Shown here piece by piece: positions 2 through 14,822 of a DNA stretch of 64,000 nucleotides (its first letter is position 1; the number at the start of each line of letters is the position of its first letter). The stretch comes from Rhodobacter sp. SY28-1 (GTDB lineage: Bacteria; Pseudomonadota; Alphaproteobacteria; Rhodobacterales; Rhodobacteraceae): contig NZ_STGH01000001.1 of NCBI RefSeq assembly GCF_005222785.1, positions 1,240,001 to 1,304,000 on the forward strand, written 5' to 3'. A model generated the notes under the pieces. It saw only the letters and a list, made by a program, of their open reading frames with translations. It ran no database searches and was not told where the DNA came from. The position numbers were made by a program, and so were the translations under genes.

Positions 2-904
2 AAGCACCGCGCCCAGTGGCGCAGCACTCTGGACAACTATGCCATTCCTGAAATTGGCGCGATGCCTGTCGGAGCGATTGATACAGCCGCCGTTCTGCGC
101 TGCCTTCAGCCCATCTGGGCGACAAAGACAGAGACCGCTACCCGCCTTCGCGGGCGGATCGAGGCGGTTCTATCGTGGGCTACGGTGGCCGGGCACAGAA
201 GCGGCGACAACCCGGCGCGCTGGTCTGGTAACCTTAAGGAACTACTGCCAGCGGCCAGCAAGGTAGCAAAGGAAAGCAACCACCCTGCATTGCAACTGGA
301 CGATGCCGCCCCGTGGTTTGCGGACTTGCGGGCGCGCGAGGGCTTCCCGGCGAGAGCATTGGAGTTTCTTGCCCTCACTGCCGCCAGATCGGGCGAGGTG
401 CGGGGCGCAAGGTGGGATGAAATCGACCTTGCTAAGGCCCTTTGGATTGTGCCTGCCCACCGAATGAAAATGCAGCGTGAGCACCGCGTGCCCCTAACTG
501 CGGAAGCGGTTGACCTGTTGAAGGCTCTGCCCCGGCTGGACCGCAACCCTCTGGTGTTTCCGGGGGCCAAGGGTGGGCAGCTTTCTGACATGGCTCTCTC
601 CATGCTTATGAAGCGCCAGCACACGGCGGCAGTTGATCGCGGGGCTGAGGGCTATCTAGACCGCGTGAGCAAGCGTCCTGCCGTGCCTCATGGCTTGCGC
701 AGCACCTTCAGGGATTGGGTGGCAGAGCGGACGCAATATCCGGGCGAAATGGCCGAAGTTGCACTTGCCCACCGGATCAGCAATGCGGTGGAGGCGGCCT
801 ACCGGCGAGGCGATATGATCGAAAAGCGGCGGCGGATGATGGCAGACTGGGCCAACTTCCTGTCTGACCGGGCACTGGGCGGCAACGTGGTGAGGATTGG
901 TTGA
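2..904 (+). CDS. Tyrosine recombinase, P4-type integrase (5' end outside window)
   Basis: The frame is open from base 2, so the true start lies left of the window; about 300 residues are visible. The first visible part is the core-binding region typical of P4-like integrases, with the motif PEIG followed by a conserved PIW. The catalytic domain shows the expected tetrad in order: Arg in ARSGEV, HGLR, Arg/His in LAHR and the nucleophile Tyr in AAYRR. It probably moves the island into and out of the chromosome by site-specific recombination. The stop overlaps the next start by one base (TGATG), which suggests translational coupling with the following unknown gene. Confidence 0.93.
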   Translation, partial: KHRAQWRSTLDNYAIPEIGAMPVGAIDTAAVLRCLQPIWATKTETATRLRGRIEAVLSWATVAGHRSGDNPARWSGNLKELLPAASKVAKESNHPALQLDDAAPWFADLRAREGFPARALEFLALTAARSGEVRGARWDEIDLAKALWIVPAHRMKMQREHRVPLTAEAVDLLKALPRLDRNPLVFPGAKGGQLSDMALSMLMKRQHTAAVDRGAEGYLDRVSKRPAVPHGLRSTFRDWVAERTQYPGEMAEVALAHRISNAVEAAYRRGDMIEKRRRMMADWANFLSDRALGGNVVRIG

Positions 905-1653
905 TGTGGTGCCCCGAGGGTTACATCAGCTTGGCCGAGTTGCTGAATGCTTTCTACACGGTTGCCGATGAAAGGCTCTGGTCTGGTGAGCTTGAGCGGG
1001 GAACAACGGACGCCCCAGAACCCCGCTTTCAAATCGACACCGGCCCACCACATGACGAATGCAAGGCATTTGCCAATTGGCTGATGGGCCGCTTTCTCGA
1101 TCAGTATGCAAACGAGATCCGAGTTGCTTCCCCCAGCGGCTCCGTTCTGCACATTGCACCCAGCCTGCTGATGGTCGAAACTGACGACCCTTTTGACTAC
1201 AATGACTACAGGCAGTTTCCTGAGTCGCGGGACGGTCGCCTTAGGGCAGGGAGCGTTCGCACTGTCTGGATAGACTTCGAAGGCATGAAGATTACCGAGA
1301 ATTTAGCGGGCACATTCGACCAAGTTTTCCGCCCCATTGTGAACTTTCCCCTTTGTATTTCCCTTTCCGCAATACCTATGCAGGCAGAAGCGCTCGTTGA
1401 TAAGGTTCTGGAGCGAGCGAGCATTGAAGCGGAGGAAGCCATCGCTTTCAAAAGTGGAAGCGAGTTTAAGGACATAGTGTTGCAGATGGTTGAGGCTTGG
1501 GACCGTGGCGAAATCACAAACAAAGCTATCGGGAGGATGCGTTTCGGGCGAGGAAGGAAGACAGCCGAATGGCTCGCCCTCTGGCGCGAGCTAGGCATAG
1601 CTCGCCCAGCCGCTTCAACGCCTGGGCGAAAGTCAAAGGGTGGAAATCGGTAA
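904..1653 (+). CDS. Island protein of unknown function
   Basis: This protein of about 249 residues is not recognised. ATG 904 overlaps the integrase stop; a TTG three bases upstream is the alternative start. The N-terminal half is acidic and globular. The last 50 residues are basic, with a likely helical DNA-binding-like tail (motifs NKAIGRMRF and RKTAEWLALWREL), as in resolvase-type helix-turn-helix ends. Coupling to the integrase suggests a role in excision, integration or element control, but this is inferred from position only. Confidence 0.75.
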   Translation: MWCPEGYISLAELLNAFYTVADERLWSGELERGTTDAPEPRFQIDTGPPHDECKAFANWLMGRFLDQYANEIRVASPSGSVLHIAPSLLMVETDDPFDYNDYRQFPESRDGRLRAGSVRTVWIDFEGMKITENLAGTFDQVFRPIVNFPLCISLSAIPMQAEALVDKVLERASIEAEEAIAFKSGSEFKDIVLQMVEAWDRGEITNKAIGRMRFGRGRKTAEWLALWRELGIARPAASTPGRKSKGGNR

Positions 1654-1659
1654 ATCATT

Positions 1660-1679
1660 CGAAACGCTTTTCGATTTTT
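1660..1679 (+). terminator. Short hairpin with T-run after the integrase operon
   Basis: CGAAA (1660-1664) pairs with TTTCG (1669-1673) over a four-base loop and is followed by five T. The stem is short, so it may be weak. Confidence 0.3.
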
Positions 1680-1682
1680 CTG

Positions 1683-1693
1683 CCGAAATTCGG
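1683..1693. promoter_or_regulatory. Palindrome upstream of the AlpA-like gene
   Basis: CCGAA and TTCGG flank one central base (CCGAAATTCGG), 41 bases before the AlpA-like start. It is a plausible operator for the small regulator that follows; nothing else supports this. Confidence 0.3.
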
Positions 1694-1734
1694 TTGGCAT
1701 GTTCATCCCAATGCAACACGCAAAAGGGATGCAC

Positions 1735-1959
1735 ATGATGGCTAAACCCGTAACGCCCGATCCGATCCGCAATGCCTATGCAGCGGACACCGACCTAGCC
1801 GCCCATTTCCGAGTTAGCCGGGCCACAATCTGGCGCTGGGCCAATGAGCGGCAATTTCCCGCCCCCGTGAAACTCTCGCCACAGATCACACGGTGGCGCT
1901 GGGCGGACGTGCAAGCGTGGGAAAAGGCTCCAGAACCCAAGACTGACAAGGTGGCCTGA
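1735..1959 (+). CDS. AlpA-like helix-turn-helix regulator
   Basis: About 74 residues. The protein matches the prophage/satellite AlpA pattern: a single helix-turn-helix (DLAAHFRVSRATIWRW), then a short wing with FPAPVKLS and a TRWRWADVQAW tail. Such proteins switch on excision and replication genes of P4-like elements. Three in-frame ATGs lie at 1729, 1735 and 1738; 1735 fits best because AAAGGG (1723-1728) is then six bases upstream. Its place between integrase and replication ATPase is the usual one for a satellite-type element. Confidence 0.85.
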   Translation: MMAKPVTPDPIRNAYAADTDLAAHFRVSRATIWRWANERQFPAPVKLSPQITRWRWADVQAWEKAPEPKTDKVA

Positions 1960-1968
1960 TTGGGTCGC

Positions 1969-2313
1969 ATGGAAAACCCCGGCGCGCTGGCGGGCGCTAC
2001 CGGCGCTGGGCAGTCTGAACATGCGTTCAAGTCCAAAGAATACCGCCTAAGAGCTGAGCGGGCAACGACCCTGTGCCTTGCGATTGCCGAGTGTGAGCCG
2101 GAGGACGCCGCACCGATCCTCTGGGAGGCGCTGGACGACTTCCACCGTAGAGGCCTTCCTGGTGCCCCTCTGACAAACCTTATGACCCATGCGACCGAAT
2201 GGGCAGGGTGGGCGACGGAGAGTGAGCTGAAGGCCTATGCGGTGGCAGCCGCGAGGCGCATGCCCCCTGCGACGCGAGCGGCCTTCCTGGTCTATCTGGG
2301 GGGCGTAGCGTGA
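1969..2313 (+). CDS. Small island protein of unknown function
   Basis: About 114 residues from ATG 1969, or 117 from TTG 1960, which directly follows the AlpA-like stop. No family is recognised. The sequence is Ala/Glu-rich and helical, with segments such as LWEALDDFHRRGLPGAPL and a C-terminal ATRAAFLVYLGG. It sits inside the same tight rightward row as the AlpA-like and ATPase genes and is probably co-transcribed with them. Confidence 0.7.
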   Translation: MENPGALAGATGAGQSEHAFKSKEYRLRAERATTLCLAIAECEPEDAAPILWEALDDFHRRGLPGAPLTNLMTHATEWAGWATESELKAYAVAAARRMPPATRAAFLVYLGGVA

Positions 2314-2347
2314 TGCAGACCCATCCCAGCGACGGTGAGGGCAAGCC

Positions 2348-3478
2348 ATGAGGCCGGACCATGACTTCACCGACTTAGAAAACGAGTATGAAAGCGAATG
2401 GATGAATTACGCCGATCCCGGCGGACGGAAGCCGGGAAGGACGGGCCGCGCCTTCAAGCTGGTTCGGTTTGCCGACCTGCAGGCGACCGAACCCGACTAC
2501 CTTGTGGAGGGCCTGATCGAGCGCGGGAACATGGTGCTGATCTTCGGCGATCCTGCGGCGGGCAAGTCATTCCTGACCATCGACCTAGGCGCGTGTGTTG
2601 CCACTGGCACCAACTTCCACGGGCGGCCAACCAAAGCAGGGGCGGTGATCTACATCGCCGGAGAGGGGCACTCAGGCCTCGCCCGTCGTCGGATGGCTTG
2701 GGAGGCCGACAAGGGCTTTGCGTTGGCGGATCGGCAAGCCCCGCTCTTTGTCAGCACGGTAGCTGGGAACTTCCTGGATACCGTGACCACAGAGGCGGTG
2801 ATTTCCGAGATCAAGGCGACCGTGGAGAGCGAAGGGCCGCCCGTGCTTATCGTTGTGGACACATTGGCGCGGAACTTCGGAGGGGGCGACGAAAACAGCA
2901 CTTCAGACATGAACCGCTTTATCGCTGCGGTTGATCGCGTAAAGGATCAGTGGACGGGCTGCAGTGCCCTGATTGTTCACCACACTGGGCATGGCAACAA
3001 AACGCGGTCACGCGGTTCCTTCGCACTGACTGGGGCAGTGGACGCGGAATTCAGGGTGGAGAAAGACGGCATGGTCATGACCGTTATCAATACCAAAATG
3101 AAGGATGCGCCGACGCCCGCGCCGATGGCTTTTGATATGGTCGAGATGCAACTGGGGCAGGGCATGACTAGCCTTGCATTGCGCGAAACTGAGGTTCAAA
3201 AGCGTGCTTCCAAGGTTTCCGGTCAGGCTGAAATTGCCCTTCAGGCTTTTGGCGACGCGCTTGCCGATCACGGTGAGAAGAAAGTGGGGGAGAGCTTCCC
3301 ACAGAACCGGCAGTGCGTCTCATTGGAGAGGTGGCGCGAGTATTGCGACCGACACGGTATATCGGGAAGCGAGAACCCGACCACTTGGCGAACCGCATTC
3401 CACAAAGCCAAGAACATCCTGCACAAGAAGGGGATCATACGAATATTGGACGGATATGCTTGGAGGGTCGAGGGATGA
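2348..3478 (+). CDS. RepA-like hexameric helicase/ATPase (AAA_25 type)
   Basis: 376 residues. The RecA-fold core shows Walker A GDPAAGKS at residues 67-74 and a Walker B stretch ending in LIVVD at about 167-171, followed by a conserved HHTGH motif that is typical of RepA/RSF1010-like replicative helicases. The C-terminal part (about 290-376) resembles a winged-helix domain. These proteins unwind origin DNA of plasmids, phages and satellites. The start has GTGAGGG a few bases upstream. An iteron-like repeat block begins two bases after the stop, which supports a replication role. The exact subfamily is not certain. Confidence 0.88.
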   Translation: MRPDHDFTDLENEYESEWMNYADPGGRKPGRTGRAFKLVRFADLQATEPDYLVEGLIERGNMVLIFGDPAAGKSFLTIDLGACVATGTNFHGRPTKAGAVIYIAGEGHSGLARRRMAWEADKGFALADRQAPLFVSTVAGNFLDTVTTEAVISEIKATVESEGPPVLIVVDTLARNFGGGDENSTSDMNRFIAAVDRVKDQWTGCSALIVHHTGHGNKTRSRGSFALTGAVDAEFRVEKDGMVMTVINTKMKDAPTPAPMAFDMVEMQLGQGMTSLALRETEVQKRASKVSGQAEIALQAFGDALADHGEKKVGESFPQNRQCVSLERWREYCDRHGISGSENPTTWRTAFHKAKNILHKKGIIRILDGYAWRVEG

Positions 3479-3480
3479 CC

Positions 3481-3576
3481 GTTCCCGCCGTTCCCAACCG
3501 TTCCATGGAACATTTGGAACGCGGGGCATTTCCGTTCCGTGCGTTCCCTCTCCCTTTGGGAGGGAACGTATGGAAC
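3481..3576. other. GTTCC/GGAAC iteron-like cluster, candidate replication origin
   Basis: Nine copies of GTTCC or its complement lie in 96 bases. Forward copies begin at 3481, 3490, 3500, 3534 and 3543; reverse copies begin at 3507, 3516, 3563 and 3572. Neighbouring same-strand copies are spaced 9-10 bases, close to one helical turn. Copies 3 and 4 form the perfect 12-base palindrome GTTCCATGGAAC, and 3543-3567 folds into a second hairpin with a TTT loop. The position directly behind a RepA-like ATPase suggests an origin or an autoregulatory site. Confidence 0.55.
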
Positions 3577-3648
3577 GCCGGTCACTCGTTGTCGCGCGAC
3601 TCCCCGATCTACACTAAACCTCCCTCAACTAGGCGGAACTGAAACTAC

Positions 3649-4290
3649 ATGCCCAGAAAACCAACGCAAAAGGAGCCGAGGCTCGTCACAGCGGCTGAAA
3701 GTCTCGCAAATGAAATCGCTCGCCTTCCGCAAGGGGAAACTCCGGAAGAAGATCAAGCATTACTCAAATGGGCTGCCGAGAACCTTCACCGCGATCTGCC
3801 CAGAACCGAACTTTCCTGGTCGGATGACGGGGTGTTGCAGATCAAAGCCAAGGGCCGATGGGGCAGGCTATACAAAGGCTCGGGTAACCCCACTGTGGCA
3901 AACGGATTGCTTGCGCACCTGGCCTGCCTAGGCTCGCACAAGAGGCGCACAGACGAGGAAGCGACCAACTTCGCGATTGCCTTCGTTGATGCCATGCAGC
4001 CGCGCGATGCGGCTGAGGCGCTACTACTAACCCAAATGGCGTCGGTTCACCTGGCAACGATGATGCTGGCGCGGCGGTTGAACCACATTGAGAACCTTCC
4101 TCAACAGGACTCTGCCGAGCGCGCCTTAAACAAGCTGGCGCGAAGCTATTCCGTCCAGATGGATACTCTAAAGCGCTACAGATCGAAGGGGCAACAGGTT
4201 GTCCGGGTGGAGCGTGTGACGGTCGAGAATGGGGCGCAGGCAATCGTAGGCAACGTGACCCACGGGGGGAGGGCCGAAGATGAAACCTGA
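3649..4290 (+). CDS. Conserved island protein (213 aa), function unknown
   Basis: 213 residues. I recognise the C-terminal half as a pattern common in alphaproteobacterial islands and phage-like elements: MMLARRLNHIENLPQQ, then SAERALNKLARSY, LKRYRSKGQQ and AIVGNVTHGG. No biochemical role is known to me. The N-terminal part contains a WGRLYKGSGNP segment of unclear function. The gene overlaps the next one by eleven bases, so both are probably translated together. A phage-packaging or DNA-binding adaptor role is possible but unproven. Confidence 0.8.
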   Translation: MPRKPTQKEPRLVTAAESLANEIARLPQGETPEEDQALLKWAAENLHRDLPRTELSWSDDGVLQIKAKGRWGRLYKGSGNPTVANGLLAHLACLGSHKRRTDEEATNFAIAFVDAMQPRDAAEALLLTQMASVHLATMMLARRLNHIENLPQQDSAERALNKLARSYSVQMDTLKRYRSKGQQVVRVERVTVENGAQAIVGNVTHGGRAEDET

Positions 4291-4549
4291 CACCTACCCC
4301 ATGCAAAGAGCCCCACGCTGCACAGCCCATAGCAAGCGCACAGGGCTTCCATGCAGCAATCCGGCAGTCAGAGGCTGGGCAGTCTGCCGGATGCACGGAG
4401 CACGCGGTGGCGCTGGGCCTGGGAAGCTAAATCCCGCATATCGGCACGGGGGGCGGACAAGAGAGGTCCAAGAGCTTCGCCGGTGGGTTTCTGAGCTAAG
4501 CAGGGAAGGCAAGGACGCAGCGCAAACCCTTTGCGGCAACGCTGAATGA
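4280..4549 (+). CDS. HGG-motif small protein with Cys/His cluster
   Basis: 89 residues. The N-terminal third holds a Cys/His pattern (RCTAHS, GLPCSNPA, WAVCRMHGA) that could bind zinc. It is followed by a Gly-rich PGKLNPAYRHGG segment and a basic helix EVQELRRWVSEL. This layout is shared by many short proteins of alphaproteobacterial mobile elements that usually follow the 213-residue family. ATG 4280 lies inside the end of the preceding gene, so translational coupling is likely. Function is unknown. Confidence 0.78.
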   Translation: MKPDTYPMQRAPRCTAHSKRTGLPCSNPAVRGWAVCRMHGARGGAGPGKLNPAYRHGGRTREVQELRRWVSELSREGKDAAQTLCGNAE

Positions 4550-4766
4550 GTAGAGTAGCCGCCTGTCAACCGTATTGATCTGCCTAAGAGGAACTGAGTC
4601 TGGACCCAAGGAAGGCAGACCTTCTGCCGGAAGAAAGGCCACCCAAGACTCCCCACAGAATGCAGTCGTGCCCATCGTCTATTGCACTTGAGCCCGACGC
4701 GTCCAGCATGTAGCTTCTTCTCCTTCTGCACGACGTGGCAACCTGAGCAAGGCTGGGTGAATTTGA

Positions 4767-5816
4767 ATGGCAAACAGAAGAAGCATCGACAGCGACCTTG
4801 GGAGCGAGCGAACTGTACTGTTCTGCCACGTAAAGAACGAAGCACCCTTTATGCTAGAATGGATTGCGTATCACCTCGCGATAGGATTTGATGAAATCGT
4901 CATCTGCTCAAACCCGTCGACAGACGGAACAGAAGAGATTCTGGAAATTCTTTCCAAAGCTGGCCGCATCAAGCATCTAAGGACCACAGTCAGAACTGGA
5001 CAATCTCCGCATGAGGCTGCTGTAGCGGAATTCAATCGATCATGTGGCTACAAGCTAGGGCATTGGTATATGTGGCTGGATGCCGATGAATTTCTAAATG
5101 TGCATGTAGGGACCGGCACCGTATCTGATCTACAAGCTGCGCTCGCAGGATACTCCGGAATTCTGATTAATTGGAGGATATTTGGTTCGAGTGGAAATAC
5201 TACATTCCCAGGAAGATTCATAGATCCCGCATTCACAAAGGCAGCTGCCAGCGGGCGTGTTGCGAACCTTGAAGTAAAGAGCTTCTTCAGGTATGGAGCC
5301 GACTTTAGAGGCTTCTCTCCGAAATTTAGCCACCGCCCATTAATCAACTTTGGGACAGAACTTCATCCTGAGTGCTTTCTGACCGGAAGTGGTAAACCAG
5401 CACTTTACACTTCCGACAGGAATATCGAATGGATCACAGGTGGAGGAGAAAAGTCTTTTCACCTCGTGGAGGAAGCAGAGTTTGGCTGGAAACTTGCGCA
5501 AGTAAATCACTATGCAGTTAGAACCCCAGAGATGTTCAAATTAAAGAGAGCGAGAGGTCGGGCATCAGTTCGCATTGGAAAGACTCAACAGAATGAGCGA
5601 TACCGGGACAACTTCTTCAAGCGCTATGATAAGAACGACGTGGATGATACATCAATTCTTCGTTGGCAATCAAGAACAACCTCAATGATCAACGAATTGT
5701 ATCGGTTGCCTGGGATGGCACAAGTCGTCCAGGATGCAACAGCTAAGACTCAAGCTGAGCTAGCCTCATTGGGCGCAGATAGCTTACCAAATACTGACAG
5801 CGCCAAAAACTCGTAA
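4767..5816 (+). CDS. Glycosyltransferase, family 2 (GT-A fold)
   Basis: 349 residues. The start of the protein (VLFCHVKNEAPFMLEWIAYH) and the metal-binding DxD in WLDADEF at about residues 110-114 are typical of the Glyco_tranf_2_4/GT92-like group, which transfers sugars from nucleotide donors. No signal peptide or membrane segment is seen, so it is probably cytoplasmic. The base composition is clearly more A+T-rich than in the surrounding genes, as in the next two genes, which suggests separate acquisition as cargo. Acceptor and sugar cannot be told. Confidence 0.85.
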   Translation: MANRRSIDSDLGSERTVLFCHVKNEAPFMLEWIAYHLAIGFDEIVICSNPSTDGTEEILEILSKAGRIKHLRTTVRTGQSPHEAAVAEFNRSCGYKLGHWYMWLDADEFLNVHVGTGTVSDLQAALAGYSGILINWRIFGSSGNTTFPGRFIDPAFTKAAASGRVANLEVKSFFRYGADFRGFSPKFSHRPLINFGTELHPECFLTGSGKPALYTSDRNIEWITGGGEKSFHLVEEAEFGWKLAQVNHYAVRTPEMFKLKRARGRASVRIGKTQQNERYRDNFFKRYDKNDVDDTSILRWQSRTTSMINELYRLPGMAQVVQDATAKTQAELASLGADSLPNTDSAKNS

Positions 5817-5833
5817 TGTGGAGACTGCGTTAG

Positions 5834-6706
5834 ATGGATCTACCACAACATTTGCTTGAGCAACTGCTCGCACTTCAATCTGCGGACGGAGCGGTCGAAA
5901 TTGTAGACGTTGGCGCGTCAAACGTCTCGAAAAGAGAGTTGCCGTCCTATACCAATCTTTTGACAAGTGGAATCGGGAGATTAACCGCATTTGAGCCAAA
6001 CAAGGCCGAATACCAGAAATTGGAGAGCAACGAAACTCGAAGGTATCTTCCATATGCGATTGGCAGTGGTGGAAGAGCTGCCCTAAGCATAACTCGAAGC
6101 CCAGGATTTTGCTCGACACTGAGCCCGAACGAGAAGGTTACCTCACAGATTATCGGTTTCTCAAAACTATCGAAGGTAACCTCAAGAATTGAATTGGAAA
6201 CGCACCGACTGGACGACCTACAAGAAATTAGCAGAATCGATTTTCTGAAGATCGACATTCAGGGAGGGGAGCTTGAAGCATTCGCGGGAGCGCGAGAAAA
6301 ACTTCGCAATTGTCTTTGTGTGCAAACTGAGACTGCCTTTGTCCCCATTTATGAAGGTCAGCCGCTCTTTGCGGATCAGGATAGATTTCTTCAGTCGATG
6401 GGCCTGCAATTTTTTGCGTTCGCATCTGTGCATCGTTTCGCATATGAGGGGACTCCGAGAAGGTATCAGAGGCGTCTTTCCCGAACTGACTTGTTGCAGT
6501 GGGTCGACGCCGACGCAATCTACCTCCGAGACTTTACAAGCTGGGAAAACTTAGAAACGTCAGAGCTAAGGCGTCTATTTTTGATCCTATTGCTAAGTTT
6601 CCGTGCAGCCAGCGCGTGTCTGCGGCTCGGCCAAATCCTAGTAGGTCGGGGCGGAATCTCTACAGATCTTCTCGACCAGCTAAAGTCTCACCTTCTGCCT
6701 GATTAG
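5834..6706 (+). CDS. FkbM-family methyltransferase
   Basis: 290 residues. The SAM-binding fold shows EIVDVGASN near residue 25, the acidic FEPN strand near 55, and the family signature DFLKIDIQGGELEAFAGA near 136-153. FkbM enzymes O-methylate sugars or polyketides. The gene follows the first glycosyltransferase by 17 bases on the same strand, so the two are probably an operon for a modified surface glycan or glycosylated protein. Its 3' end overlaps the opposing glycosyltransferase gene by 47 bases. Confidence 0.87.
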   Translation: MDLPQHLLEQLLALQSADGAVEIVDVGASNVSKRELPSYTNLLTSGIGRLTAFEPNKAEYQKLESNETRRYLPYAIGSGGRAALSITRSPGFCSTLSPNEKVTSQIIGFSKLSKVTSRIELETHRLDDLQEISRIDFLKIDIQGGELEAFAGAREKLRNCLCVQTETAFVPIYEGQPLFADQDRFLQSMGLQFFAFASVHRFAYEGTPRRYQRRLSRTDLLQWVDADAIYLRDFTSWENLETSELRRLFLILLLSFRAASACLRLGQILVGRGGISTDLLDQLKSHLLPD

Positions 6707-7622
6707 ACTTTTCAAGCATACGCATTGCACCTTCAGTAAATGCGATTAGTCGTCTTAGTAGCTCATCGCGCTCGCTCGTGGTGTATTTGAGCTCGAACGA
6801 CGTCGGCGTTACGAGAGCTTCTCGAAGCATGGCGCTTGGCTTAGTCGAAGCATAATTGAGAGCCAACTCCTGCAAGTCAGCCTCTGTTGGTAGCCAGCCG
6901 GATAGAATGCGGTCTGCTGTGATTCTCCACTGCAGTGCTTCGCCCTTGCTGTTTCTGCTTCGAAGTCGCATGTTCCAAGATCCAATCAGTAGCTTTGAAA
7001 TGACTTGTTCACGAGACCGAATGGGGAAGTGAGCAATGGACAGTCCAGCGATCTGGCGGGGTTCATAGCCAGAGATCTTTGACCTAATTGAGTGACTTCC
7101 TGGGCGAACCCAAGAATGTCCGAATAGTTCTCTTGGCACCGTCACCTTGTAAAACTGTGGCTTCTCTTTAACTCTGCGATGGACGACACGAACAATGGGA
7201 TTTATCTCGGTCTTGTCGTCTTCGCTAGAAGGTATGTATGTGACCCACGGGAGTCGGATGGGGAACCTCGAATGAGTCAGAATATAGCGGAAGAAGTCCC
7301 GATCGGCGTTGATGAACTCATCGGCGTCAAGCAAGACCACTTGACCTACTCGGTCCGTAAAGGCAGGATCCAACAAACACTCGTTAATGATGCTTGTTTG
7401 CGGATGGCCTGACCTCATATCAGATGTTAGGTCGACACGGTCTCCGAATTCTTGTTGAAGTTTTCGTAGAATGGACATCGTTGAGTCAGCGCTGTCGTTG
7501 TTGACTATTCTTAGTCTGTCTAGAAAGCACAGGTTGTGGCGGACCATTGGCTCGATAATGTCGGCTTCGTTCTTTGCAACGCACAGCCCAACAAGCTCAT
7601 TCTGCATTTCATTTTTCTCCAT
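6660..7622 (-). CDS. Glycosyltransferase, family 2
   Basis: 320 residues. The N-terminal ELVGLCVAKNEADIIEPMVRHN and the DxD in VVLLDADEFI at about residues 96-99 identify a GT-A glycosyltransferase of the same broad group as the gene at 4767. ATG 7622 or the internal ATG 7607 may be used. It points against the FkbM gene and overlaps its 3' end, so the three cargo genes form two convergent units. The composition is A+T-rich for this genome. Substrate is unknown. Confidence 0.85.
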   Translation of the reverse strand: MEKNEMQNELVGLCVAKNEADIIEPMVRHNLCFLDRLRIVNNDSADSTMSILRKLQQEFGDRVDLTSDMRSGHPQTSIINECLLDPAFTDRVGQVVLLDADEFINADRDFFRYILTHSRFPIRLPWVTYIPSSEDDKTEINPIVRVVHRRVKEKPQFYKVTVPRELFGHSWVRPGSHSIRSKISGYEPRQIAGLSIAHFPIRSREQVISKLLIGSWNMRLRSRNSKGEALQWRITADRILSGWLPTEADLQELALNYASTKPSAMLREALVTPTSFELKYTTSERDELLRRLIAFTEGAMRMLEKSNQAEGETLAGREDL

Positions 7623-7902: not shown

Positions 7903-8217
7903 CTACTCGCAACCGATGCCATCACCGTCCCTGTCTAGATGCGCGCCATACCCTGGATCGCCAATGCGAACGGGCGCTGCCCCAGCAGCACGCGCAGCAG
8001 CGCAGTTGCGGAAGGCTCCGGTCGACCCGGTTGGCTGCGTGAAAAGTGTTTGCGCTTTGGGAGTAGGAGCGCGATGGCAATGATAGTCACCGGTCTTTCG
8101 GTTATTGTGGCATCCGTCTGAGTTGAGCCCACCGCCGTGAGCAAGAACGGGTGTGGGCATGGAAAGCGCCGCCATAACCGCGACGGCGGCGTGCAAAATC
8201 ATGAGGCGAAAGTGCAT
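7903..8217 (-). CDS. Secreted YHYH-like/Excalibur-domain protein
   Basis: 104 residues. A signal peptide covers about residues 1-26 (hydrophobic stretch, cleavage near VLAHG). A His/Cys-rich segment follows (HGGG, GCHNN, GDYHCHR), then an Excalibur calcium-binding domain from about 68 with NCAAARAAG and the DRDGDGIGCE end that gives the family its DxDxDGxxCE signature. Such domains often accompany thermonuclease domains in one protein. Here a thermonuclease gene lies divergently next door, so a shared job in extracellular or periplasmic DNA handling is possible. Confidence 0.85.
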   Translation of the reverse strand: MHFRLMILHAAVAVMAALSMPTPVLAHGGGLNSDGCHNNRKTGDYHCHRAPTPKAQTLFTQPTGSTGAFRNCAAARAAGAAPVRIGDPGYGAHLDRDGDGIGCE

Positions 8218-8337
8218 GGCTAAATCTCCCTACAATCGGGCACACACTCCCTCTGGGTTGTGGCGTTTATGTGTTGTGCACGAGTAAACTATGCGATGCT
8301 GTCACGCGGCCGACGGTCTGAATGGGAAGGAACTGCG

Positions 8338-8703
8338 TTGTTTGCCTTGATGGTCTGCGCTAGCCTGACGGCTGTCGATGGCGACACTGTGAAGTGCGAC
8401 GGACAGAACCTGCGCGACATGGGCGATGGAGCGCCGTTTGTCTCGGGATATGACACTCCCGAGTTAGGCAGGAACGCCAACTGTGACCGAGAGAATGCAC
8501 TGGGAAAGGAGGCAAAGAAGCGAATGGCCGAGCTTCTCATGACCCCTGGGCTTTTGATCGAAGACAGCGGCGAAATTGACCGTTACGACCGCCCTCTTGT
8601 GGTTCTGAGGCTTCCTGACGGACGCACCATCGGGAGTGTGATGCTTGCCGAGGGTTTGGCAGTGGAGTGGCGTCCCGGCGGTGACTTCGATTGGTGCCGC
8701 TAG
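8338..8703 (+). CDS. Thermonuclease-family (SNase-like) protein
   Basis: About 121 residues from TTG 8338, which has GGAAGGAA at 8325-8332; longer frames from GTG 8260 or ATG 8296 are open. The motif VDGDTVKCDG is followed by the nuclease residues of the SNase fold: Arg in NLRDMGDG, Glu in DTPEL and Arg in DRYDRPL. The C-terminus shows MLAEGLAVEW, the usual GLA helix. It probably cleaves DNA or RNA outside the cytoplasm, although a signal peptide is weak in the short form. It is divergent from the Excalibur gene. Confidence 0.82.
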   Translation: MFALMVCASLTAVDGDTVKCDGQNLRDMGDGAPFVSGYDTPELGRNANCDRENALGKEAKKRMAELLMTPGLLIEDSGEIDRYDRPLVVLRLPDGRTIGSVMLAEGLAVEWRPGGDFDWCR

Positions 8704-9572: not shown

Positions 9573-11045
9573 CTAGGCATTGAATCCGAATGTCTCAAGA
9601 ATTTCAAAGGGAGTCCGCACAGAGCTGCGAGACTGCCTTGATGGAGGTTCAAGTCCACTCGCATAGCTCCGCCAATCGCCTTGATGGACGTCTGCCCACA
9701 ACGCGTCAAGTTTTGAAGCCTCTCGCTTTGCTCTTGCTTCAAATTCCTTTGACAGCGGTGAGAACTTACCTCTGATCTGGTCCTCTCTATATTGTTCAGC
9801 CAAGTGTCCATATGTGGCAGAAACGGACCGCGTATCGGAATGTCCAAGTTGCCTCGCCACTAGGCTCAGCGGTACCCCGTTTCGTACCAAGTCACTCGCA
9901 TAGGTATGCCGAAGGCCATGGAAGACGAACTCAGTCGGAAGATCTGACAGCCGAACTGCACGCCGAAACAGATTTGGATGTTGCCGTGCCCAAACTTTGC
10001 CCTTGTCCGAAAGCAGAATGCGTTCGCCAAGCTCCTTTCCTTCGCAACACGAGAGGAAGAATGCCATCGCCTCATCTGGCAGAAAAACGAAGCGAGCAGG
10101 CGCCAGTTTGAACGCAGCAACATGAAGCCCGAAGACTTCTCGGCCTACGTCGCTGACGCGAAGGTTTGCCAGTTCGCCAACACGGCAGCCCGTGTAAAGG
10201 CCGGCCAAGACCAGACGGGCGAGCGCAGGTGTGCAGTTACTTACTAGTTTCCGACACTCTTCGCGGTTTAGAAAAAGGGTTCGAGCAGCAGGTGGAACTG
10301 CAATTCGGTGAAGGCAACGGAGAGGTCGATCAGAAGATAGTCGTCCGCTGTCCCATGCTAGCCCGAACGCCATACGCAGCACAGTGATAATGCTGTTGAA
10401 CACCCTCTTTGCGCGTCTGACCACATCGGCGGCCGGGTCGAGCTTCGATCCTCTACATCTTGCACGTTTGGTGTGCGCTCCAAGAACACGTTGCGCAATC
10501 TCTCGCAGATGACGTGCGTTGAAGTCCTCCAACGCTTCCATCAAGAGGGGGCCGCAGAGATGAAAGTTGATCAACACGACGTTGTTGTAGTGGCTACCTG
10601 GAGAGCGGGCGATGCGTGACCACTCTAAATACTCGGTCAGCGCAGAGCCGACAGTGTAGACACTTCCGTACGGGCAAAAGTTGAGACCTTCTGCTCGGCC
10701 CACGGGTCGGGTGCTTTGCGCTTTGCTGAGAACTGCTTCACTCTCGAACCAGGCGATTGCTCTCCTCAACGCTTCGTCGTAGTCGGCGGCGTCGGGGTCG
10801 CCCATGCGTGCTGAGGCCAGTCTGTGTTGGATGTAGCGCCCTTCAACCGTCATGACGCGTGCCACCCAAGTGCTCACTCGAGCGTTCGGCCTGTAAATCC
10901 CGATGTGTCTACACAAGGCCACAGAATGCCAGTATGGCGTTTCGCGCGCCTTTAGATGCCGTCGATGCTCCAGAAGCGCGAACGGGCAAGGGGGAGTGGT
11001 GGACCAATCCACTGGCGTTGAACGATCTAGGCTTGGCACAGTCAT
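9573..11045 (-). CDS. Tyrosine recombinase/integrase (second of the island)
   Basis: 490 residues. All catalytic residues of a tyrosine recombinase are present: Arg288 in TGCRVGEL, His376 and Arg379 in FHGLRHTYAS, His402 in QLGHSD and the nucleophile Tyr412 in ATYGHL. The long N-terminus (about 1-250) holds the arm and core-binding regions; the last 75 residues form a basic extension. It is unrelated in detail to the P4-type integrase at the left end and points the other way. The island may therefore be two elements side by side or nested. Confidence 0.92.
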   Translation of the reverse strand: MTVPSLDRSTPVDWSTTPPCPFALLEHRRHLKARETPYWHSVALCRHIGIYRPNARVSTWVARVMTVEGRYIQHRLASARMGDPDAADYDEALRRAIAWFESEAVLSKAQSTRPVGRAEGLNFCPYGSVYTVGSALTEYLEWSRIARSPGSHYNNVVLINFHLCGPLLMEALEDFNARHLREIAQRVLGAHTKRARCRGSKLDPAADVVRRAKRVFNSIITVLRMAFGLAWDSGRLSSDRPLRCLHRIAVPPAARTLFLNREECRKLVSNCTPALARLVLAGLYTGCRVGELANLRVSDVGREVFGLHVAAFKLAPARFVFLPDEAMAFFLSCCEGKELGERILLSDKGKVWARQHPNLFRRAVRLSDLPTEFVFHGLRHTYASDLVRNGVPLSLVARQLGHSDTRSVSATYGHLAEQYREDQIRGKFSPLSKEFEARAKREASKLDALWADVHQGDWRSYASGLEPPSRQSRSSVRTPFEILETFGFNA

Positions 11046-14280: not shown

Positions 14281-14745
14281 TTCTGCCTCCTACTGGCTGG
14301 GAAAGTGAGAGCATACAACTTTTGGGTGAGCGAGTCCTACAGGCCCGACCGCCCCTAAGGATTTCGGCAAAAGGTGGCTGACGTTAGTTTGCCCCAACAG
14401 CGCTGCATCTCCTCGCACAGGCTAGCAGGCGAGCGTCCTGCGGCATTGGCGAAGTTGGCAGGGGATGCCGTCTGGCCATGTCGTGAAAACCTGAAAAGCT
14501 GCCCGACCATCTAGGCCGGGCAGTCAGAATCGAGATCTGGGGAATTAGTGCTGCTCAACTTCGCGAGCGGGGTGGGGACCCTGTTTGCTCGCCCCAGAAC
14601 GATGCCGGATCACTTGGGCAATATGATGGCAAGTTGGCCTCACGCGGAAATCAGGGAAAAGGCGCGCAAGCGTTTTCGAGATAGTGGGTTCATTGATGGG
14701 TATGAAAGCCAAAGTGACCAAATAATCAATGATTTCAAGGGGGAG
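14281..14745. other. Gap between last island gene and tRNA-Arg
   Basis: No supported gene. A hairpin CTGCCCG/CGGGCAG lies at 14499-14523 without a T-run. A GTG-started frame (14548-14790) runs into the antisense of the tRNA and is probably not a gene, or is a remnant. This stretch borders the likely attachment site. Confidence 0.4.
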
Positions 14746-14822
14746 TGGCGGACCCGGAGCGATTCGAACGCCCGACCCTCAGATTCGTAGTCTGATGCTC
14801 TATCCAGCTGAGCTACGGGTCC
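14746..14822 (-). tRNA. tRNA-Arg (anticodon ACG)
   Basis: The 77-base minus-strand gene starts with GGACCCG, pairing with CGGGTCC before discriminator G and an encoded CCA. The D arm (GCTCAGCTGGATAGAGC), the anticodon loop CTACGAA inside a TCAGA/TCTGA stem and the TTCGAAT loop are all present. The 3' end faces the island, the usual orientation when integrases use a tRNA 3' end as target. Confidence 0.96.

Follow-up and report, generated by a model that had tools for sequence, protein, structure and literature searches.

A candidate iteron origin behind a RepA-like helicase gene in a Rhodobacter island, and covariation of its repeated word with a predicted helicase helix

A block of nine GTTCC/GGAAC words directly behind a RepA-like helicase gene of Rhodobacter sp. 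SY28-1 is probably the iteron origin of an integrative phage-satellite-like island. The helicase would be the initiator and its predicted C-terminal winged helix would bind the words, as judged from sequence comparison and a structure model.

The repeat block

The window, which is the whole 64-kb stretch of DNA analysed here, contains the word GTTCC or its complement GGAAC nine times within 96 bases (3481–3576), as direct reading confirms. This is the densest cluster of any 5-mer in the window, the runner-up having seven copies, and its Poisson P is 2e-12 per place and about 1.5e-7 across the window. The spaced pair GTTCCN4GTTCC occurs four times in the window, always in the block, against 0.13 expected, and elsewhere in the organism's own genome (4.28 Mb) same-direction words in the form GTTCCN3-6GTTCC are present only as single pairs and one triplet. 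The initial annotation, which had called the block far above chance, was thus correct on this point, as it was in placing the block two bases 3' of the ATPase stop (TGA at 3476–3478, first GTTCC from 3481), in giving steps of 9 or 10 bases between words of one group and in describing a perfect central palindrome, which is GTTCCATGGAAC at 3500–3511. The described order of forward pairs followed by reverse pairs stands for the reverse pairs, but the first group is a forward triplet and the arrangement reads FFF-RR-FF-RR. The words fall into two sets:

3480–3521, no strand: iteron set 1, with words at 3481 (+), 3490 (+), 3500 (+), 3507 (−) and 3516 (−), by direct reading; homologue locus L036 has equal offsets with another word
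3533–3577, no strand: iteron set 2 as a hairpin in a DNA fold, with words at 3534 (+) and 3543 (+), the central stem CTCCCTTTGGGAG, and words at 3563 (−) and 3572 (−)

Folding with DNA parameters gives one long hairpin for 3533–3577 (z −6.1), which none of 200 shuffles equalled. The 13-nt spacer between the two sets is 31% AT, so that an AT-rich spacer is absent from the window, and no DnaA-like box was found near the array, the single one lying at 1145. Readings of promoters, terminators and RNA families, together with PADLOC on seven proteins, gave no support to other interpretations.

The helicase and its C-terminal domain

The gene in front of the block encodes the proposed initiator, and its codons close to the 3' end encode the proposed recognition helix:

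2348–3478, + strand: RepA-like helicase, proposed initiator (AAA_25, E 1.2e-37; closest solved structures, RSF1010 RepA; model pLDDT 86.8)
3377–3427, + strand: codons of helix 344–360 (PTTWRTAFHKAKNILHK), proposed recognition helix (helical in the model; the helix predicts the word)

The earlier naming of a RepA-like helicase upstream of the block is upheld by the AAA_25 match and by the RecA-type core, for which RSF1010 RepA is the best of the solved structures (profile E 2.2e-13; Foldseek ranks 1–4). The core spans residues 44–282 approximately and is followed by a predicted winged helix at about 290–376. In the model this C-terminal domain has helices at residues 292–308, 326–335 and 344–360 and strands at 364–367 and 370–373, and by the order of these modelled elements it is a winged helix. 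Modelled in isolation, the domain has a pLDDT of 69, and a fold search with it returned winged-helix proteins among the matches, none of them at E 0.001 or better.

Borders and content of the island

The surroundings of the helicase gene are those of an integrated element, with the following features:

1–904, + strand: tyrosine integrase of 435 aa, the listed ORF beginning 404 bp before the window
901–1653, + strand: ORF of 250 aa without assigned family (no Pfam, PHROG, PADLOC or NCBIfam match)
1699–1959, + strand: AlpA-like regulator or excisionase (PF05930, E 4.2e-06; phrog_66)
1960–2313, + strand: ORF of 117 aa before the helicase gene (no family match in Pfam, PHROG, PADLOC or NCBIfam)
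3649–4290, + strand: ORF of 213 aa behind the array (no Pfam, PHROG, PADLOC or NCBIfam match)
4280–4549, + strand: ORF of 89 aa with an HGGxSTG-like motif (phrog_3678; NF041373 at 25.5 bits, below the cut-off of 29)
14745–14759, no strand: right end of the island, a 15-bp repeat at the 3' end of tRNA-Arg, with its left copy at −562 to −548

The integrase, AlpA and the tRNA-Arg border bear out the earlier assumption of an island. The tRNA-Arg(ACG) gene lies at 14746–14822 on the minus strand, and its 3' end at 14746 is the right border; four congeners match the window rightwards from 14740–14746 and not leftwards. The left border is placed by the 15-bp repeat, which matches the 3' end of the tRNA; the left copy lies about 145 bp upstream of the integrase ORF, and 0.09 such repeats are expected by chance across the searched stretch. 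The tRNA-Arg border and the left repeat copy therefore give an island of about 15.3 kb. A search of the congeners for an empty site found none; the two flanks lie apart there, so that this comparison confirms the right border only. To the left of tRNA-Arg(ACG), the DNA of the four congeners is unlike that of the window, as at an integration hot spot.

As in Gram-negative PICIs, the island has an integrase with a specific attachment site, and an AlpA-type regulator with a rightward direction from int to rep, the latter up to 4549, beyond which gene directions are mixed. The domains of its cargo are glycosyltransferase, FkbM, Excalibur, SNase, tautomerase and SRAP. Genes for an FkbM methyltransferase and for two proteins of glycosyltransferase type occupy 4767–7622, between the replication module and a second integrase, and divergent genes for Excalibur-domain and SNase-like proteins lie at 7903–8703. 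The second integrase, also of the tyrosine type, is encoded within the island at 9573–11045 on the minus strand, in the opposite direction. Since this gene is accompanied by varied cargo, the island may be composite, perhaps two elements in tandem.

Arrays at the 3' ends of helicase homologues

Relatives of the helicase were found in 25 of 295 genomes of the family, 11 of 385 of the class and 27 of 398 of the phylum, with the own genome counted in all three sets, and in 15 phage or plasmid records among the 70 matches listed. Loci were taken from genome contigs (18) and from viral contigs (19 and a further 80, the best 80 of 563). Among 208 sequences, 200 contain a helicase ORF, the other eight being chromosome-flank loci; 161 were retained at 90% identity, and the 159 with a stop and enough downstream DNA were scanned. 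An array was any over-represented 5–7-mer between −250 and +350 of the stop at a log10 P of −7 or below, and the controls were 562 gene ends of other ORFs in 150 of the homologue loci.

Arrays were present at the helicase 3' end in 122 of the 159 non-redundant homologues as compared to 8 of the 562 control gene ends, while 37 homologues did not reach the cut-off. When the threshold was relaxed to −5, the counts were 135 and 34, respectively. Repeats behind the homologous ATPase, which the initial annotation had named as the check on its proposal, are thus found at that place. The GTTCC pattern itself does not recur in the same manner, for the word mostly differs among elements. A search of the homologues for GTTCC only, in which 2 of the first 63 loci had at least 6 words per 100 bp, had looked like a refutation for this very reason and was overturned by the scan for any word.

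The cut-off is reached by 5 of 6 plasmid records and by 6 of 9 phage records, namely Rhizobium 16-3, RHph_X2_25 and RHph_N65, Roseobacter CRP-406 and CRP-823, and Alteromonas PB15. In protein sequence the nearest relative is L125 (51%), among the best 80 of 563 viral loci; it belongs to an element with an integrase, an array and a phage portal gene. The view that the block is not coding sequence is right for the window but not for 35 of the 122 array-bearing homologues, where the array begins inside the helicase reading frame. The arrays at helicase 3' ends support the original suggestion of an origin of replication; replication itself we infer.

Varied words in a conserved geometry

The words of the arrays vary by element and include CGTTCC, CGTTAC, CGTCAC, CGTGAC, CGTAAC, CGGGACA, CGGACA, GGCGACA, ACTGGAA, CACCTA and more. 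In a frequent layout, forward copies 9–11 apart are followed by inverted copies and, beyond a gap, by a short GC-rich palindrome (e.g. CCCCTATAGGGG) with two forward copies before it and two inverted copies after it. Steps between same-direction words peak at 9 (155), followed by 10 (98), 11 (66) and 8 (62). A centred stem of at least 4 bp between opposed words is present in 82 of the 122 loci and in 221 of 4240 single shuffled gaps, two counts in different units, a locus offering several gaps. This count replaced an ungapped inverted-repeat scan (45 of 159 homologues against 27 of 562 controls at a score of at least 10), which was too blunt a measure because the spacings differ. In 96 homologue spacers the mean AT content is 51% as compared to 45% for the locus, and 32 of them exceed their own locus by more than 10 points.

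The offsets of the words in the window are 0, 9, 19, 26−, 35−, 53, 62, 82− and 91−. In locus L036 the word is GTCAC and the offsets are 0, 9, 19, 26−, 35−, 54, 63, 84− and 93−; GTTAC fills eight of the nine slots of the window in L064, L065 and L066. Each of 22 loci of kept geometry has 5–9 copies of its own word, counted with the leading C, and no more than three of any other of the five words. Nearly all copies have changed jointly with their positions kept, as expected for the binding sites of one protein.

A short helix of the helicase tracks the word

Covariation with the word was computed for the helicase core, the C-terminal domain, the helix and the stretch nearest the array, with relatedness among loci handled by the 90% filter and partial correlation only. 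Over the 122 array loci, similarity of the word follows similarity of the C-terminal domain given the core (partial Mantel 0.395, 0/500 permutations) and not similarity of the ATPase core given the domain (0.017, 153/500). The 74 loci whose nearest neighbours differ between the two parts have the more similar word in the domain neighbour in 48 cases and in the core neighbour in 26. As the C-terminal domain is physically nearest to the array, linkage could explain this correlation, a point addressed by a finer division of the domain.

The motif [polar]-x-[ASC]-F of the helix is recognisable in 56 of the 122 loci, the remaining 66 being left out, and nine of the 56 were dropped for too short flanks, leaving 47 usable loci. 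In these the 12-residue helix predicts the word (0.428, 0/1000), in a test devised on the same data that yielded the pattern, while the rest of the C-terminal domain hardly does (0.067, 129/1000) and the stretch between helix and array, with the helix accounted for, does not (0.029, 265/1000). The prediction extends across divergent core backgrounds (0.439, 0/1000). When the helices are classed by the second and sixth letters of the motif, T+K goes with CGTTCC in 5 of 5 loci, K+R with CGGGAC in 12 of 16, Q+R with CGTGAC in 5 of 7, T+R with CGTCAC in 4 of 5 and M+R with CGTAAC in 3 of 4. This covariation suggests that one short helix at the C-terminal end of the helicase reads the repeated word.

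Loci found by the DNA pattern alone

In the reverse direction, viral contigs and family genomes were searched by the DNA pattern alone. GTTCC yielded 85 loci, 53 of them with at least 6 words, and 32 of these 53 lie at the 3' end of a profile-found helicase (two rows, L417 and L421, are one array). For GTTAC, 81 of 93 matched stretches were analysed, of which 53 have at least 6 words, and 14 of these 53 lie at a helicase end. The pattern alone is not diagnostic. Some of the arrays fall within coding repeats or follow the genes of other proteins.

All six new R-x-A-F helicases behind GTTCC carry R[TS]AFHK (L282, L283, L305, L322, L323, L417), as compared to none of the three behind GTTAC (L391 RVAFKR, L395 RKAFHS, L397 RKAFFA); the nearest known helicase to any of these is 76% identical or less, so that this small set is separate from the data in which the pattern had been noticed, and other C-terminal types, e.g. 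L243, L252, L258, L327, L329, L356 and L382, are excluded from these counts. Natural pairs differ in the same sense. L163 and L189, 87% identical, combine RTAFMR with GTCAC and RVAFKR with GTTAC, while L322 and L397, 76% identical and with domains much alike outside the helix, combine RTAFHK with GTTCC and RKAFFA with GTTAC.

Other types of C-terminal domain also occur at GTTCC or GTTAC arrays. As several pattern-found helicases have unrelated C-terminal parts, other domains can reach the same word. In L243, L252, L258, L295 and L318, helicase homologues with a proline-rich C-terminal tail have GTTCC arrays at the gene end, perhaps a convergent use of one word. In L347, L358, L352, L373 and L386, GTTAC/GTAAC arrays lie within or close to frames that encode other proteins, and some of these have coding repeats of the NVT type. 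By analogy with lambda O, whose gene contains the origin, these arrays are possibly origins inside initiator genes.

Discussion

The initial annotation had offered as an alternative an operator, through which the helicase, or some other protein of the island, would control the next genes or the helicase gene by binding the words, with replication starting elsewhere. We consider this unlikely. Although the inverted word pairs are operator-like and the next ORF (3649) has the same direction and begins 72 bp past the array, the array lies 3' of the helicase gene and not 5' of it, a consensus scan found no promoter-like site at 1600–4700, and the word tracks the recognition helix of the helicase. 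In L102 and L104, which both have arrays, the next annotated gene is convergent, so that the array does not lie at the promoter of that gene.

The block could also be an origin with a different reader (AlpA, the product of the 117-aa ORF or a host protein), the helicase being recruited only. RSF1010, which has 20-bp iterons bound by a separate RepC, and also a primase RepB, provides a precedent. A Pfam scan named none of the ORFs scanned here RepC or RepB. The power of the helicase helix to predict the word across divergent cores speaks against another reader, and we regard one as very unlikely. Least credible to us is that word and C-terminal domain are inherited together as DNA neighbours without any binding. 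The array does adjoin the C-terminal codons, and recombination would consequently move both together, but the stretch nearest the array has no predictive value for the word when the helix is allowed for, and linkage leaves the joint change of nearly all copies unexplained.

For the reading as an iteron origin, the course that we infer from the computed position, geometry, word–helix covariation and island borders would be as follows. The integrase, probably with AlpA, would excise the element. The C-terminal winged helix would bind the GTTCC words via the helix containing RTAFHKAK, by which the attached RepA-like hexamer would be loaded and would then unwind the DNA. With two iteron sets, helicases would come to sit on either side of the melting region, and melting or priming may take place at the hairpin of set 2.

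Several known systems bear a resemblance to this arrangement. The present helicase has a RepA-type core like that of RSF1010 RepA (IncQ), and the profile match covers the core only. In an E. coli satellite-like region on pSTEC1024_3 (L109), AlpA and a homologous AAA ATPase are likewise followed by an array right behind the gene, then by SSB and capsid genes; in contrast to the window, the word there is AAGTGGG and no centred hairpin was found. Regions such as this go by the label 'capsid-forming PICI'.

The closest likeness is to the rep-ori of SaPIs and PICIs. There, short iterons in two sets lie directly behind the initiator-helicase gene and are recognised by the C-terminal domain of the helicase (PMC6092414, PMC7581432). 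Binding by an initiator to iterons that immediately follow its gene thus has a precedent in print, described for SaPI Rep as recognition by the C-terminal domain of the iterons directly downstream (PMC7581432). The present element is similar in that a short-repeat array stands immediately 3' of the helicase gene, two iteron sets are present, the C-terminal domain appears, by covariation only, to determine the origin sequence, and an integrase and AlpA-type regulator lie upstream on the same strand. It differs in the RecA-type AAA_25 core, in having no AT-rich region between the sets of the window, in the iteron-armed hairpin of set 2 and in the occurrence of the layout in phages too.

According to PMC7581432, the SCCmec helicase Cch2 has a C-terminal domain which, in isolation, binds short repeats located close behind the gene. 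The combination of a helicase C-terminal domain with short repeats just behind the gene is shared with the present case, for which the binding that was demonstrated with Cch2 would be presumed, whereas Cch2 is a D5-type helicase in that paper's wording, with three AAGTG repeats, from a Gram-positive cassette (PMC7581432). In the PLE satellites of Vibrio, according to PMC8263062, the RepA DNA-binding domain and the origin covary, which makes the replicon modular as it appears to be here; unlike the present helicase, the PLE initiator is of the RepA_N type without a helicase, and its iterons are semi-palindromic and about 30 bp long. The PLE iterons are the target of a phage nuclease that may select for their change (PMC8263062), and by analogy such selection is a possible driver of word diversity here. 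In view of the likeness to the SaPI/PICI, SCC Cch2 and PLE replicons, our best reading is that the present origin works like a SaPI/PICI rep-ori. We found no closer description of this origin or of the helix–word relation in the open-licence literature.

More broadly, we lean towards the view that the AAA_25 helicases which serve as initiators in satellites, phages and plasmid-like elements constitute a single large family of self-reading replicons. In such a family a few residues of one helix of the winged helix (R-x-A-F-x-x) would set the variable bases of a 5–7 bp iteron; almost every copy in a conserved central-hairpin array would change along. The layout that PMC6092414 describes as common to PICIs and to no other known replicon occurs in phage genomes too, in 6 of the 9 fetched. 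A rule for placing origins follows, which is to look 3' of a RepA-like helicase gene for any iterated word rather than for a fixed one. In many satellites and phage-like islands of non-model species the origin is, to our knowledge, unmapped. As word and recognition helix are mutually predictive, replicon specificity, compatibility and module exchange become testable with natural pairs that differ mainly in one helix. If the view of one self-reading family is true, it would amount to a readable code of protein–DNA recognition that lets the sequence alone assign origins and probably also compatibility groups.
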